Shown piece after piece: positions 38,330 through 43,751 of a DNA stretch of 64,000 bases. The DNA is taken from the NCBI GenBank assembly GCA_927441425.1, contig CAKMKG010000005.1, positions 62,001 to 126,000 on the forward strand. Direction: 5' to 3'. The stretch's first letter is position 1. Each line of letters starts with the position of its first letter. The notes beneath the pieces were generated by a model that searched no databases, was not told where the DNA came from, and saw only the letters and a list, made by a program, of their open reading frames with translations. This DNA comes from an uncultured Bacillota bacterium. Lineage in GTDB: Bacteria; Bacillota; Clostridia; Peptostreptococcales; Anaerovoracaceae. The position numbers and the translations under genes are program-made.

Positions 38330-38425
38330 GCAACCCTCCACAAGGGGAATCCTATAGCATTTTATTGGCTTATGGTTGGTTCCTTATATTTTTATGTCCA
38401 AAATTAAAAAATGGAGGTTAACATT

Positions 38426-39424
38426 ATGAAACGTTTGATATCTATTATCATGATCGCATTATTGATCATTACGGTATCCGCCGGATGCCAGTCAGAAAAC
38501 CAAGTAAATTCCGAGGGAGAAATGCCCGATAGCAGCGAAAAGATCAGTGTTGTGACAACAATCTTTCCTCAGTATGATTTCACCCGCCAAATTGCAGGAG
38601 ACATGGCAGAGGTAACAATGCTGCTCAAGCCCGGAGCAGAGAGTCATTCCTTTGAACCAACACCCCAGGACATCATAAAGATTCAAAGCTGCGACGTATT
38701 TATCTATGTCGGTGGTGAGAACGATGAATGGGTAGACAGTATTCTGGATTCTGTCGATCAAAGCAATATAAAAATCATAAAGCTTCTTGACTGTGTTGAT
38801 GTACTAGGAGAGGAAATCATAGAAGGGATGGAGGCTCACGATCACGAAGATCACGAAGATCACGAGAATCAGGAAGGACACGAAGAACATGGAGTTGAAT
38901 ATGACGAGCATGTTTGGACCTCACCACAAAATGCGGTCACAATAACCAATGTCATTCGGGATGTACTCTGCTTCGTCGATACCCCCAATGCGGAAGCTTA
39001 TACAGCAAATGCGCTGAAGTATGCCGAACAGCTCAATCAGCTGGACGCGGAATTCAAAGACGTGGTTGAACATGCAAACCGAAAAACCATCGTATTTGGA
39101 GATCGATTCCCTCTCAGATATTTTACGGAAGCCTATGGACTTGATTATTGGGCCGCATTTCCGGGTTGTTCTACAGAGTCGGAGCCAAGTGCGGCAACCA
39201 TCGCCTATCTGGCGGATAAGATAAAGACTGAAAAGATTCCCGTAGTCTTTCAGATCGAATTAAGCAGCGGAAACGTCGCTCAGTCGATTGCGGAAGCCAC
39301 CGGCGCCAAGGCGATGACCTTTCACTCCTGTCACAATCTATCCAAAACCGATTTTGAAAATGGTGCTACTTATCTGAGCCTCATGGAGAAAAATGTGAAA
39401 GCATTAAAGGAGGCGCTGAACTAG
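38426..39424 (+). CDS. znuA: Metal ABC transporter substrate-binding lipoprotein (ZnuA-like)
   Basis: About 332 residues. The N-terminus is a lipoprotein signal with lipobox SAGC. VVTTIFPQYDFTRQIAGD and ADSHTFE-like GAESHSFEPTPQD place it in the cluster A-I / ZnuA family. A His/Asp-rich loop (HDHEDHEDHENQEGHEEH) near residue 140 is typical of zinc-specific members. YDEHVWTSPQNA and FGDRFPLRYFTEAYGL supply further ligands. The frame is open to 38411, but GGAGG falls inside that extension, 8 bases before the ATG at 38426. Zinc is most likely; manganese or iron cannot be excluded. Confidence 0.88.
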   Translation: MKRLISIIMIALLIITVSAGCQSENQVNSEGEMPDSSEKISVVTTIFPQYDFTRQIAGDMAEVTMLLKPGAESHSFEPTPQDIIKIQSCDVFIYVGGENDEWVDSILDSVDQSNIKIIKLLDCVDVLGEEIIEGMEAHDHEDHEDHENQEGHEEHGVEYDEHVWTSPQNAVTITNVIRDVLCFVDTPNAEAYTANALKYAEQLNQLDAEFKDVVEHANRKTIVFGDRFPLRYFTEAYGLDYWAAFPGCSTESEPSAATIAYLADKIKTEKIPVVFQIELSSGNVAQSIAEATGAKAMTFHSCHNLSKTDFENGATYLSLMEKNVKALKEALN

Positions 39425-39425
39425 T

Positions 39426-40136
39426 ATGGCTCTTCTTACGTGCGAAAATGTATCTCTTGCTTATGATGGAGAGACCGTTGTTTCAGATCTGTCCTTTGAA
39501 GTAAAACCTGGGGACTACCTTTGTATCGTTGGGGAAAACGGTTCCGGGAAAAGTACGCTGATCGCAGGTTTGCTCGGGTTGAAAAAACCAACAGCAGGCT
39601 TCATCGCCATGGGTGACGGACTAAAGCAAACGGAGATCGGATATCTTCCCCAACAGACAAATATTCAAAAGGATTTCCCCGCCAGCGTTTTTGAAGTGAT
39701 TTTATCCGGTTGCTTAAACAGCGGCAACCTCTTGCCTTTTTATACAAAGCGTGACAAGCGGAAGGCTACAGACAATATGGAGCGGCTTGGACTTACAAAT
39801 TTAAAGAATCGGTGTTACAAAGAACTTTCCGGCGGGCAACAGCAGCGTGTGCTGCTCGCCCGGTCCCTTTGTGCCACGAAAAAATTACTGATCCTTGATG
39901 AACCCTTTTCCGGCCTAGATCCCATTGTATCGGGAGAATTCTATCAGCTGGTCCGAACCATCAATCTGGAAATGAAAATAACAGTTGTTATGGTATCCCA
40001 TGATATCAGAAGCGCTGTGGAGAACGCCACTATGATTTTACACTTGAATCAAAAACCGCTCTTCTTTGGTAGAACCGCGGATTATATCGAAAGTGAGGCG
40101 GGGCGAAGGTTTATAGGAGGGAATGGAAATGTCTGA
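39426..40136 (+). CDS. znuC: Metal ABC transporter ATP-binding protein (ZnuC-like)
   Basis: 236 residues. Walker A GENGSGKSTLIAGLL, signature ELSGGQQQRVLLAR, Walker B LLILDEP and switch histidine VVMVSHDI are intact. It is one base from znuA and its end overlaps the true start of the permease gene by 8 bases, so the three form one importer. The sequence class is that of zinc/manganese uptake ATPases. Confidence 0.92.
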   Translation: MALLTCENVSLAYDGETVVSDLSFEVKPGDYLCIVGENGSGKSTLIAGLLGLKKPTAGFIAMGDGLKQTEIGYLPQQTNIQKDFPASVFEVILSGCLNSGNLLPFYTKRDKRKATDNMERLGLTNLKNRCYKELSGGQQQRVLLARSLCATKKLLILDEPFSGLDPIVSGEFYQLVRTINLEMKITVVMVSHDIRSAVENATMILHLNQKPLFFGRTADYIESEAGRRFIGGNGNV

Positions 40137-40959
40137 ATTTTTTGCTGAACTGTTCTCCTACCCATTCATCGTCAGAGCTGTGATTGTCGGGATTCTAGTA
40201 TCCCTTTGCGCGTCCCTACTTGGCGTCAGCCTTGTATTAAAGCGCTATTCCATGATCGGCGACGGATTATCCCATGTAGGCTTCGGCTCCCTTGCAGTTG
40301 CAACTGCGCTGAATGTAGCACCTCTTTCCGTTTCTGTTCCGGTTGTCGTCCTTGCCGCTTTTCTTCTACTTAAGGTGACCGAGAACAGTAAAATAAAGGG
40401 TGATGCTGCCATTGCTCTAATATCCACTAGCTCACTTGCATTGGGTGTTATTGTGATCTCATTGACAACGGGAATGAATGTAGATGTTTGCAACTATATG
40501 TTCGGCAGTATCCTTGCGATGAGTAAAAGTGATGTGAAGCTGAGCATTGCGCTGTCGGTTGCCGTATTGGTGTTGTTCGTTGTATTCTACAATAGAATTT
40601 TTGCAATTACCTTTGACGAGACATTTGCGAAGGCAATCGGCTTGAAAACCAATCTGTACAGCATGCTGATTGCGCTTCTGACCGCCATCACGATTGTTCT
40701 GGGGATGCGTATCATGGGAGTGCTTCTGATTTCCAGCCTGATTATCTTTCCGGCCCTTACCTCGATGCGCGTATGCAAGAAATTTAAAACTGTGACAATC
40801 AGTTCAGCAATCGTTTCTGTTGTATGCTTCTTTGCCGGTATTGTCATTTCCTATGTATTTGCAACACCAACCGGCGCAAGCATCGTCATTGTAAATATCG
40901 TAGCTTTTGTTGCCTATTGGATTACCGGTCTGGTTTTGAGAAAGGCGTGGTTAAGATGA
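40129..40959 (+). CDS. znuB: Metal ABC transporter permease (ZnuB-like)
   Basis: About 276 residues with seven to nine membrane helices of the ABC-3 family. MIGDGLSHVGFGSLAVATAL and the later MRIMGVLLISSLIIFPALTS are family blocks. The frame opens with an ATG at 40123 only 2 bases after GGAGG; the ATG at 40129, 8 bases away, is a better start and gives MSEFFAELFSYPF. The stop overlaps the lipoprotein gene by 4 bases (ATGA). Confidence 0.92.
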   Translation: MSEFFAELFSYPFIVRAVIVGILVSLCASLLGVSLVLKRYSMIGDGLSHVGFGSLAVATALNVAPLSVSVPVVVLAAFLLLKVTENSKIKGDAAIALISTSSLALGVIVISLTTGMNVDVCNYMFGSILAMSKSDVKLSIALSVAVLVLFVVFYNRIFAITFDETFAKAIGLKTNLYSMLIALLTAITIVLGMRIMGVLLISSLIIFPALTSMRVCKKFKTVTISSAIVSVVCFFAGIVISYVFATPTGASIVIVNIVAFVAYWITGLVLRKAWLR

Positions 40960-41794: not shown

Positions 41795-41812
41795 GGTTAG
41801 TGTTATATAACC
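41795..41812. promoter_or_regulatory. Candidate DtxR-type operator at the regulator gene
   Basis: GGTTAGTGTTATATAACC is an 18-bp near-palindrome with the same half sites as the palindromes at 43612 and 43669. It lies 24 bases before the likely start of the DtxR-type gene, between it and the divergent truncated gene, as expected for autoregulation. Confidence 0.55.
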
Positions 41813-41835
41813 GTTTTTTTTAGGAGATGATAAAG

Positions 41836-42207
41836 TTGAAAATGCAGGAATCTGCGGAGATGTACCTTGAAACGATTCTTATTTTAAGCCAAAAGAATCA
41901 TTACGTAAGATCCATTGATATTGCATGTGAGCTTAACTATAAAAAATCCAGCGTCAGTGTAGCCATGAAGAATCTGCGTGAAAATCGATATATTCATATG
42001 GACAGCGACGGATCGATTACGCTGACCGAAAAAGGAAAAGAAATTGCTGAAACCATGTACGAACGACATACCCTCATCGCTGATTGGCTGATCTACTTAG
42101 GTGTTGGTCAGGACATTGCCATGGAAGATGCCTGCCGAATGGAACATGTAATCAGCACAGACAGCTTCAACGCAATAAAAATGCATTTGAAGGAAATTAA
42201 AAAATAA
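41836..42207 (+). CDS. DtxR-family metal-dependent transcriptional regulator
   Basis: About 123 residues: an N-terminal winged helix (SIDIACELNYKKSSVSVAMK) and a metal-binding dimerisation domain; there is no C-terminal SH3/FeoA domain. Aligned by eye with the families, EMYLETI carries methionine where MntR has Asp8, and DACRMEHVIS carries cysteine where MntR has Glu99. These are the DtxR/IdeR choices (Met10, Cys102) and point to Fe(II) rather than Mn(II). ATG 41827 abuts AGGAG, so the TTG at 41836 (9-base spacing) is preferred; ATG 41842 is another option. Confidence 0.82.
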   Translation: MKMQESAEMYLETILILSQKNHYVRSIDIACELNYKKSSVSVAMKNLRENRYIHMDSDGSITLTEKGKEIAETMYERHTLIADWLIYLGVGQDIAMEDACRMEHVISTDSFNAIKMHLKEIKK

Positions 42208-42233
42208 TAAAAGCAAATCATTTTGCCTTTGCA

Positions 42234-42278
42234 AAAAACTGAGTAGGTATGCCCCTGATCATACCCACTCAGTTTTTT
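42234..42278. terminator. Bidirectional terminator between regulator and flavodoxin genes
   Basis: AAAAACTGAGT-A-GGTATG and CATACC-C-ACTCAGTTTTT form a 17-bp stem with one mismatch and an 8-base loop, with T-runs on both strands. It sits between the convergent DtxR-type and flavodoxin genes. Confidence 0.85.
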
Positions 42279-42282
42279 CAAT

Positions 42283-42708
42283 TTATTGTGCCAAAGCCTG
42301 GCCCATTGACCGGCAAGCTTCGTTTGCTTCCTCATCCGGATCTTCATTGCATATGACATAATCATCGACAAAATAAGCGCCATCTTTGCGGCAAGTCTCT
42401 TCCCAATTTCGCATCCACTCTCCATCCCCCCATCCATAAGAGCCAAAGAGCGCAATCTTTTTCCCTTTCAGCTTTGCTTCACAGTCTAAAAACATCGGCT
42501 CAAATTCACTCTCTTCCAATACCTCTGCGCCCATGGATGGGCAACCAAATGCAATTGCATCAAAAGAATCCATTTTATCCGCCGAAAAATCTGACGGTGT
42601 AAACAAAACCACCTCTGCTCCCGCAGCTTCAGCCCCTTCTTTTATTTTTATTGCCATACGTTTTGTATTCCCCGTACCACTCCAATAAACAACTGCTACT
42701 TTACTCAT
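42283..42708 (-). CDS. Flavodoxin
   Basis: About 141 residues. The N-terminal FMN phosphate loop is VVYWSGTGNTKRMA; AIAFGCPSMGAEVLEE and KKIALFGSYGWGDGEWM are the flavin-contact regions of clostridial short flavodoxins. Flavodoxin replaces ferredoxin as electron carrier under iron shortage. The frame is open to 42741, but GAGGG lies 6 bases before the ATG at 42708. It is the last gene of the DUF2325-DUF3793-flavodoxin unit, preceded by two candidate iron-regulator sites. Confidence 0.93.
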   Translation of the reverse strand: MSKVAVVYWSGTGNTKRMAIKIKEGAEAAGAEVVLFTPSDFSADKMDSFDAIAFGCPSMGAEVLEESEFEPMFLDCEAKLKGKKIALFGSYGWGDGEWMRNWEETCRKDGAYFVDDYVICNEDPDEEANEACRSMGQALAQ

Positions 42709-42740
42709 ACATATCCCTCTTTTCCAATTTTTTAATATCA

Positions 42741-43292
42741 TTAAGCAGCTACAATAAGCTGCATAATAGAATACCCACCATCGAACATTTTCGAATATAC
42801 ATCCTTACACTTTTTATATCGATCAAATAATTTTATCGCTTCCCTTTCATTACGGTATACCTTCCAGCAACCCGCATGTTTGGAATTTTGTCCTTCGTTT
42901 TCAATGAATCCGATTACGTCAATCAGGGGGTAGCCGAGAAATAACCCAATTTCATGAGGGAAATCGGATTGCGCGGCAAAACGCTCCTTCAGCTTTGAAA
43001 TTACGTATTCTGTATCGAGCTTCCCATAACCAAGTTGCATAAGAAAAACCTCTACACCGCTTTTCCCTAGATCCCTAACCAAGTATTTAGGACGATATGC
43101 CAGGATCAGCGTGCTTAAATTTTGTATGCGCAATACTTCAAGATAAATCCCCTTGCTGTTGAGTTTTCTGTTTGCCTCCTGGATCTGAAGCGTCAGCTCT
43201 CCAATTGATGTAAAGCGGCAGCAAAAGAGATTGCCTGTTTTGATTCCTGCCAACGTAGGTGCGCAATGCGTGATCAATAATCTTTCCAGCAT
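42741..43292 (-). CDS. DUF3793 family protein
   Basis: 183 residues matching the DUF3793 pattern: HCAPTLAGIKTGNLFCC at the start, IQEANRKLNSKGI, LAYRPKYLVRDL and FPHEIGLFLGYPLIDVIGFI, ending with WKVYRNEREA and FDRYKKC. The family is almost confined to anaerobic Firmicutes and is often found beside flavodoxin and iron-uptake genes, but has no assigned activity. The conserved cysteines and histidine may bind metal or heme-like groups; this is speculation. Spacing to the genes on either side is 17 and 32 bases. Confidence 0.85.
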   Translation of the reverse strand: MLERLLITHCAPTLAGIKTGNLFCCRFTSIGELTLQIQEANRKLNSKGIYLEVLRIQNLSTLILAYRPKYLVRDLGKSGVEVFLMQLGYGKLDTEYVISKLKERFAAQSDFPHEIGLFLGYPLIDVIGFIENEGQNSKHAGCWKVYRNEREAIKLFDRYKKCKDVYSKMFDGGYSIMQLIVAA

Positions 43293-43309
43293 AACGTTCT
43301 CCCCCTAAA

Positions 43310-43591
43310 CTAAGAACATAGTTGATGAAAGATGTTATTCAAAGCACTCGTACTGCTTGAATGGCTGCGAGCAATCGGAATTCCGTTTCGTTTTGCTTCC
43401 TGTACCACACCTGAAATCATCTTATGGGAAACTGTATTTGTAAACAAGATCAACAGATCCGGTGTCCCCATTTTCTTTTTCAAAGAACCGTTTTCCTTCG
43501 TGAAAACCTTAGCCTCGAAGCCGTATTTGCTGCATATTTCTTTATACCTACACTCCATACATTCATTTCCACCAACAATAACTACACTCAT
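43310..43591 (-). CDS. DUF2325 domain protein
   Basis: 93 residues, DUF2325 family: MSVVIVGGNECMECRYKEIC at the start with three cysteines, then LLILFTNTVSHKMISGVVQ and ARSHSSSTSALNNIF. The fold is predicted to be Rossmann-like; members occur with DUF3793 and flavodoxin in clostridia, with no known reaction. GAGGTG lies 5 bases before the ATG. It is the first gene of the unit and lies directly behind an 18-bp palindrome. Confidence 0.82.
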   Translation of the reverse strand: MSVVIVGGNECMECRYKEICSKYGFEAKVFTKENGSLKKKMGTPDLLILFTNTVSHKMISGVVQEAKRNGIPIARSHSSSTSALNNIFHQLCS

Positions 43592-43611
43592 GATTTCACC
43601 TCGATTCTTTC

Positions 43612-43629
43612 GGTTAGTTTAAACTAACC
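43612..43629. promoter_or_regulatory. Perfect 18-bp palindrome, candidate DtxR-type operator
   Basis: GGTTAGTTTAAACTAACC is fully self-complementary and lies 21 bases upstream of the DUF2325 start. It shares half sites GGTTAGT / ACTAACC with 41795-41812 and 43669-43686. The TTAG/CTAA core resembles the DtxR/IdeR operator. Confidence 0.65.
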
Positions 43630-43668
43630 ATCCGTTAAAATAAAAAGGCTCGCTGCCATTGTGCTCTT

Positions 43669-43686
43669 GGTTAGTTCTGACTAACT
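43669..43686. promoter_or_regulatory. Second candidate DtxR-type operator
   Basis: GGTTAGTTCTGACTAACT contains the inverted repeat GTTAGT-N4-ACTAAC and matches the site at 43612 in 14 of 18 positions. The centres are 57 bases apart, so both could flank the promoter of the flavodoxin unit. Confidence 0.55.
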
Positions 43687-43751
43687 AAAAACATAATAAC
43701 AAAATACCTCACTGCTGTCAATACTTGTTCTTTGATTGTTATAATTGTTTT

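Follow-up and report, generated by a model that had tools for sequence, protein, structure and literature searches.

The window analysed here is a stretch of 64,000 nucleotides (nt) from contig CAKMKG010000005.1 of an uncultured Bacillota bacterium. It carries a gene for a DtxR-type regulator, an operon that encodes a DUF2325 protein, a DUF3793 protein, and a flavodoxin, and three copies of a short palindrome (Table 1). Judged from sequence, the palindromes are very probably operators of an iron-responsive DtxR-family repressor that acts on iron-uptake genes and on the flavodoxin operon.

Genes and palindromes at the locus

The palindrome was scored as the 18-mer GGTTAGT-N4-ACTAACC. All three copies described in the original prediction are present, with 2, 0, and 1 mismatches, and their positions are borne out, one being at the promoter of the DtxR-type gene and two upstream of DUF2325-DUF3793-flavodoxin. 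Two parts of the earlier description were revised. The statement that no other copy occurs holds within the window, where a fourth 18-mer copy was not found at up to 3 mismatches, but further copies exist in the whole genome. The palindromes themselves are real, but the conserved core and general operator is GTTAG-N6-CTAAC, and the T adjoining this core varies.

Table 1. Coordinates of the features discussed, in window positions
Feature	Position	Strand	Details
Operator copy 1	41795..41812		GGTTAGTGTTATATAACC; 2 mismatches to the 18-mer, 1 mismatch to GTTAG-N6-CTAAC; between a divergent helix-turn-helix (HTH) open reading frame (ORF) and the DtxR-type gene
Operator copy 2	43612..43629		GGTTAGTTTAAACTAACC; perfect palindrome, 0 mismatches; 20 bp before the DUF2325 start codon, just ahead of the likely ribosome-binding site
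Operator copy 3	43669..43686		GGTTAGTTCTGACTAACT; 1 mismatch; at the predicted transcription start of the DUF2325 operon
DtxR-type regulator, 126 aa, two domains	41827..42207	+	PF01325 41.6 bits (cut-off 26); PF02742 56.2 bits (cut-off 27)
Predicted promoter of the DUF2325-DUF3793-flavodoxin operon	43693..43721	-	TTGACA-17-TATTAT, TG before the second hexamer; 11/12 consensus matches, best pair of the region
DUF2325 protein, 93 aa, first operon gene	43310..43591	-	PF10087 E 5e-33; Rossmann-like AlphaFold2 model, predicted local distance difference test (pLDDT) 92
DUF3793 protein, 183 aa	42741..43292	-	PF12672 E 1e-55, 188.8 bits (cut-off 25.1); model pLDDT 95
Short-chain flavodoxin	42283..42741	-	PF00258 E 3e-18; TIGR01753 flav_short above cut-off; likely start 42708 (MSKVAVVYWSG...)
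HTH-only ORF, 65 aa	41551..41748	-	MarR / Fe_dep_repress HTH; divergent from the regulator, sharing the promoter region with copy 1
ZnuA-ZnuC-ZnuB type metal ATP-binding cassette (ABC) operon, then lipoprotein with DUF1980_C	38411..40959	+	

The predicted promoter would place the transcription start of the operon at about 43686, inside copy 3, and copy 2 lies 57 bp further downstream. This is the layout expected of a repressor that would block both the start and the early transcript. The region contains 5 promoter-like sites versus 5.3 by chance, a number that is not above chance. The true start of the regulator may be a TTG at 41836, as suggested by a GGAG at 41823-41826 and by relatives that begin with M-K-x-x-E-S. 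DUF3793 has a single match in the source genome. Stretches resembling the 65-aa HTH ORF, at 47% and 40% identity, are found in L166 and L240; both loci also hold feoB together with DUF3793 or a DtxR-type gene.

Occurrence of the operator and of Fur boxes

The source genome has a size of 3.58 Mb and is approximately 90% complete; its contigs are labelled C3, C6, C18, and so on. All 4 of its exact GTTAG-N6-CTAAC sites are located in two promoter regions. Two precede the window operon, and two, which read GTTAGC-N4-GCTAAC and are joined by a further one-mismatch copy, lie on C18 between a DtxR paralogue and a divergent feoA-feoA-feoB cluster (FeoA, FeoA, and FeoB by Pfam). On C3, three one-mismatch sites 41-43 bp apart stand before a second feoA-feoB (FeoB by Pfam, FeoA by eye). 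At up to one mismatch the genome holds 24 sites versus 122 expected from composition, and the reversed control pattern gives 9 exact and 129 such matches. Nine of the 24 sites belong to promoters of iron or regulator genes, in four regions (the window operon, the window regulator, C18, and C3); the remaining 15 comprise 12 within ORFs, 2 between ORFs, and one that runs over the 3' end of an ORF. Two matches with 2 mismatches to the 18-mer were rejected as operators, namely C10:13443, within an ORF, and C26:64833, between ORFs and before a transporter-type solute-binding gene (by eye) without an iron role. Three DtxR-type proteins are encoded: the window regulator, its C18 paralogue with 53% identity, and a third, more distant protein on C6, a contig on which no GTTAG-N6-CTAAC site was found at up to one mismatch. 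The genome scan returned the motif before feoAAB, feoAB, two DtxR-type genes, and the DUF2325-DUF3793-flavodoxin operon. This supports the proposed iron regulon, which is larger than the three sites from which it was drawn.

The window and C18 loci have a further neighbour in common. A second Znu-type operon, with a Fur-family gene, adjoins the C18 paralogue (L020 3960-7070), so that both DtxR loci neighbour such an operon, the metal probably being zinc. No GTTAG-N6-CTAAC site was found near 38411 at up to one mismatch.

Conservation was examined with one genome per species at the best 80 of at least 590 relatives of DUF3793, mostly titled clostridial and close relatives (the 80 named loci). 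In the 400 bp upstream of the operon, 61 loci have an exact site and 70 have a site with at most one mismatch; when the upstream stretches were shuffled in 100 rounds, the number of loci with an exact site averaged 0.03 (maximum 1). Among palindromes of any 5-mer with an N6 spacer, GTTAG ranks first; TAGTT, which can overlap GTTAG, occurs in 16 loci and the next in 2. A spacer of 6 is the only one enriched, with 61 loci versus at most 2 for any other spacer from 0 to 12. Two or more sites are present in 35 of the loci, and tandem copies are mostly 33-78 bp apart. The fetched stretches contain a flavodoxin in 56 loci, DUF2325 in 33, FeoB in 14, and the regulator in 11. Across 80 genomes of the window's family, 352 exact sites were counted versus 122 of the reversed pattern.

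The single-contig congener G008 has 21 exact sites, all outside the larger ORFs; 20 lie outside every kept ORF (at least 65 aa, non-overlapping set) and one lies over a 97-aa ORF opposite the feoA region. In agreement with the proposed clustering of sites near iron-uptake genes, they occur before feoA-feoB and beside FecCD with ABC and Peripla_BP_2 importer genes, two of them between FecCD and Peripla_BP_2. Further neighbours are DUF2325, DUF3793-flavodoxin, a DtxR relative next to a methyltransferase, Trep_Strep and ABC genes, and a protein with a flavin mononucleotide (FMN)-binding domain. The closest relative found for the window regulator (G003, L328; 78% over 82 aa, the contig ending inside the gene) is divergent from feoA-feoA-feoB (FeoA by Pfam, second FeoA and FeoB by eye). 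Their shared promoter region has one exact and two one-mismatch sites, another exact site precedes feoB, and the inner bases are mixed.

Operators also occur in additional settings. In the genus relatives L322, L331, and L332, 2-3 tandem operators 33-34 bp apart precede the gene of a large secreted protein with an FMN-binding domain (assigned by Pfam as FMN_bind in L322 and by eye in L331 and L332), possibly an extracellular reductase in the iron regulon. In L323 (3121-11002) and L330, a DtxR relative is divergent from a methyltransferase/ABC transporter cluster (with Trep_Strep in L323) that has several operators and is possibly a metallophore or energy-coupling factor (ECF)-type uptake cluster.

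Fur boxes were sought upstream of 30 DUF3793 loci, including the source one, by scoring the box TGATAATNATTATCA against mononucleotide shuffles. An exact GTTAG-N6-CTAAC site occurs within 400 bp upstream in 14 of these loci; the window's family accounts for 13 of them (of 16 loci) and the other families of the order for 1 (of 14; own sorting). The best Fur-box match covers 11-14 of the 14 positions in 13 of the 16 loci that lack the site, and no more than 10 in any of the 14 that have it. Twelve of these 13 Fur-box loci belong to other families and one (L033) to the window's own; L046 and L052 are neighbouring genes with the same box. Such scores were reached by at most 1.5% of shuffles in 11 of the 13, by 24% in L029, and by 3% in L033. 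Neither a Fur box nor an exact site was found in L035, L041, and L042. Before the window operon no Fur box was found, the best match being 9 of 14, which 88% of shuffles reached.

The DUF3793 operon thus carries Fur-type sites in several families and GTTAG-N6-CTAAC in others, likely as a result of regulator replacement. It is probably an iron-controlled operon whose controller has been swapped between Fur and DtxR. Control of flavodoxin (fldX) and feo by Fur and iron is described for Clostridioides difficile and C. acetobutylicum in passages of an earlier study (PMC6311696). Together with the Fur boxes before the same operon, this provides independent support for iron as the signal.

The regulator and alternative explanations

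Both domains of the DtxR/MntR superfamily, Fe_dep_repress and the metal-binding/dimerisation domain, are present in the regulator above their cut-offs. Its ligand positions, mapped from alignment end points (query 7-124 to DtxR 5-123) and by eye, are M12, E15, H81, C103, E106, and H107, of which M12, C103, E106, and H107 match the sulfur-ligand set of IdeR (Met10, Cys102, Glu105, His106). According to passages of a review (PMC10317159), Met10 and Cys102 raise the Fe2+ selectivity of IdeR, MntR has Asp or Asn and Glu at these positions, and exchange of ligands between the two proteins switches or broadens the metal response. The Met and Cys of Fe(II)-sensing DtxR/IdeR, which the original prediction had emphasised, are both at ligand positions, but the Met is not required. 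Whereas each of the 75 regulators compared has Cys103, position 12 holds Met, Asn, or Asp, with single cases of Glu and Ser, and the Met, Asn, and Asp variants all occur beside feo. Since Asn or Asp is found in feo-linked relatives, Met is not by itself diagnostic.

On sequence grounds, the regulator has an MntR-like two-domain build with the sulfur ligands of IdeR. With DtxR and IdeR of the Actinomycetota it shares both Pfam domains (Fe_dep_repress and Fe_dep_repr_C), the Met and Cys ligands, and a predicted iron regulon in which the regulator's own promoter also carries a site. Unlike these proteins, it has only two Pfam domains, a third, SH3-like domain not being found, and its position 45, which corresponds to IdeR Gln43 by our own alignment, is Val. 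The ancillary-site residues of DtxR, Glu83 and His98, are not kept either (Ala85 and Met99). The half-sites TTAG and CTAA are also shared, and the spacing of TTAGN-N4-NCTAA equals one half of the IdeR box TTAGGTTAGSCTAACCTAA, that is, its first and third repeats (box as given in a passage of PMC10317159). In contrast to the 19-bp IdeR box, which the sites do not match beyond its one-dimer half, the operator here is a single palindrome, often in tandem. By analogy with the published box, one regulator dimer would read each GTTAG-N6-CTAAC site.

The build of the protein is also the ground for a different explanation, in which the protein senses manganese in the manner of MntR and the operon forms part of a manganese response. 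The best solved relatives by sequence and the best NCBIfam matches are MntR, and, as in MntR of Bacillus and E. coli, the protein is small, has two domains, and keeps Glu11 (as E15). However, the NCBIfam equivalog cut-offs for MntR are missed (77.7 of 153 and 70.4 of 138 bits), and the MntR ligands Asp8 and Glu99, as given in a passage of PMC6860424, are replaced by Met and Cys. The predicted targets are feo and flavodoxin genes, and Fur boxes precede the same operon elsewhere, which makes a manganese sensor improbable. An origin of the palindromes by chance, or as unrelated repeats such as terminators or sites of other regulators, could be argued from the counts. Three or more 18-mer matches are also reached in 9 of 100 dinucleotide shuffles of the window, so the count alone is not striking, and the count of core sites at up to one mismatch is reached in 3 of 100. 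Site counts were rejected as evidence on the basis of these shuffles and of a genome count equal to the composition expectation; the case for operators rests on placement and conservation. The 61 of 80 loci with an exact site, the fixed spacing of 6, and the promoter position refute chance for the family of sites, and such an origin has next to no probability here.

A third explanation concerns the identity of the regulator. The sites may belong chiefly to the feo-linked C18 paralogue, the window regulator being a redundant or auxiliary copy. The similarity of the paralogue to the window regulator and its position beside feoAAB with three sites of its own favour this explanation, as does the fact that the DUF3793 operon and its sites often lack an adjacent regulator (a regulator match is present in 11 of the 80 named-locus stretches). 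Against it, the inner base differs, being T/A at the window and C/G at C18. A similar division exists in G024, in which the regulator-linked locus has T/A only, a second DUF3793 locus has C/G only, and the feo locus is mixed, mostly C/G. Regulators with Arg45 have C at the inner base in 78% of cases, whereas the others (Val/Tyr/Ile, more T/A) have it in 41% (18 and 18 loci, naive p 0.0005), but in phylogenetic generalised least squares the association of position 45 with the inner base has p 0.25 at the best lambda, 0.08 at 0.5, and 0.50 at 1. A paralogue-specific operator code is therefore not significant after correction for relatedness and was kept as a lead only. Passages of PMC10317159 state that IdeR Gln43 touches the first base of each repeat and that such base contacts are not required for recognition. 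The 60 regulator regions were chosen mostly from the top of a list of 91 matches and are not a random sample. A chief role of the C18 paralogue is less likely than not.

Several observations weigh against control of the sites by an iron-responsive DtxR-family repressor. The number of exact sites in the source genome (4, versus 4.0 expected from base composition) is not above chance, and no promoter-like pair was found beside copy 1, the weakest site. An exact site within 900 bp upstream was found for 40 of 119 subfamily regulators (36 after removal of duplicates), so most have none nearby. The window operon may be read by the C18 paralogue or by both proteins. Fur itself may not have been lost, given the Fur-family gene that adjoins the Znu-type operon on C18. 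Some sites in G008 stand before genes with no evident link to iron, such as MATE, ABC genes, and one for an SLH-type protein (by eye). Finally, 19 of the 80 named loci have no exact site in 400 bp, one of them with just 1 bp of upstream DNA. Fur-box scores in the 80 loci are near the shuffle level with or without the site, so these 19 are not explained by Fur.

A proposed mechanism and a possible flavodoxin module

The link from regulator through operator to flavodoxin that was originally proposed is supported by the placement of sites at feo and flavodoxin genes, by their conservation, and by the Fur boxes on the same operon elsewhere. We infer binding by a DtxR-type protein, with Fe(II) as the metal and repression as the outcome. 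When iron is sufficient, the two-domain regulator would be loaded with Fe(II) via its Met/Cys/Glu/His site and would occupy each GTTAG-N6-CTAAC as one dimer. Copy 3 would place it over the transcription start of the operon, copy 2 over the stretch before the ribosome-binding site, and copy 1 over its own promoter, and feoAAB and feoAB elsewhere in the genome would be shut off together with the targets in the window. When iron becomes scarce, the metal would leave and the block would be lifted. Ferrous uptake would rise, and the flavodoxin would be made with its two partner proteins and would replace ferredoxin.

This arrangement resembles that in C. difficile and C. acetobutylicum, in which Fur controls fldX and feo, flavodoxin and feo are iron-repressed, and flavodoxin is taken to replace ferredoxin. 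Fur also controls fld in Desulfovibrio, according to a passage of PMC545781. Whereas these clostridial and Desulfovibrio systems use Fur boxes and Fur, which belongs to another regulator family, the DUF3793-flavodoxin operon here has a DtxR-type operator. A flavodoxin with a small partner of unknown function is likewise found in the fldA-DUF2023 operon of Bacteroidota (PG1857-PG1858, BT0516-BT0517), although the partner there is DUF2023 and not DUF3793. As reported in passages of PMC10434189, the genes of that operon are among the most induced in low iron, PG1857 and the flavodoxin PG1858 being 48- and 133-fold up and their Prevotella intermedia counterparts 159- and 164-fold. Cj1384c of Campylobacter resembles the first protein of the operon in being small and of the DUF2325 family, and a redox or metal role has been suggested for it, but it is reportedly regulated by PerR and RacRS and clustered with katA (passages of PMC9426514). 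In the titles, abstract starts, and passages of the open-access literature covered, no report was found of a GTTAG-N6-CTAAC operator or of a link of DUF3793 to DtxR or flavodoxin.

DUF3793 may be a counterpart of the Bacteroidota DUF2023. The DUF3793 model has no Foldseek match on PDB at E <=0.001 and was not taken as a new fold. A second structure comparison placed 2guk, which is PG1857, a DUF2023 (PF09633) protein, first, with 103 residues aligned of a 111-residue chain, a root-mean-square deviation of 3.5, and a Z of 6.5 (next 4.4), which is below the tool's warning level of 8 and can be chance. The DUF3793 profile gave nothing convincing against PDB sequences, DUF2023 is absent from the 25 listed of 32 families matched by 63 DUF3793 members (E <=10), and hhalign with a 3-sequence DUF2023 alignment gave a probability of 0.8%. 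A 14-column LGYP/LGYD stretch is common to both families, with no other sequence support. The DUF2325 model has its best match in the phosphotransferase system (PTS) IIB protein 3nbm (E 7e-4), from which no function was drawn.

DUF2023 also occurs in Bacillota, in 2 of 398 genomes of the phylum and in 5 of 38 of one order, of which two, L368 and L369 (G596, G598), have copies with internal stop codons. The three intact genes found all adjoin a flavodoxin, DUF2325 is clustered with them in L366 and L367, and a Fur-family gene is present in L365 and L366. L366 (449-2436) has the order DUF2325 - flavodoxin - DUF2023 with Fur, that is, the module of the window with DUF2023 in the place of DUF3793, and L367 (1462-3041) has the same order with an extra small ORF between; the two genomes are distant members of Bacillota. 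For these few cases the shared flavodoxin context of DUF2023 and DUF3793 is firm. Tentatively, one iron-starvation module may extend across phyla. It would combine DUF2325 and flavodoxin with a small partner protein, DUF3793 in Clostridia or, in Bacteroidota and a handful of other Bacillota, the remotely related DUF2023, and would be wired to the iron sensor of each lineage, DtxR-type or Fur. The small protein might then be a dedicated flavodoxin partner, for example for FMN loading or for docking to ferredoxin-dependent enzymes.

For a broad range of clostridia, the results define an operator and predict an iron regulon. The occurrence of the same operon with Fur boxes or with a DtxR-type site, depending on lineage, is a likely case of regulator replacement. 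The ligand exchanges introduced by mutation to study metal selectivity (passages of PMC10317159) have a natural parallel in the Met/Cys site of this MntR-like two-domain protein. In addition, the tie to iron starvation and flavodoxin opens the function of DUF2325 and DUF3793, two families of unknown function, to experimental testing.

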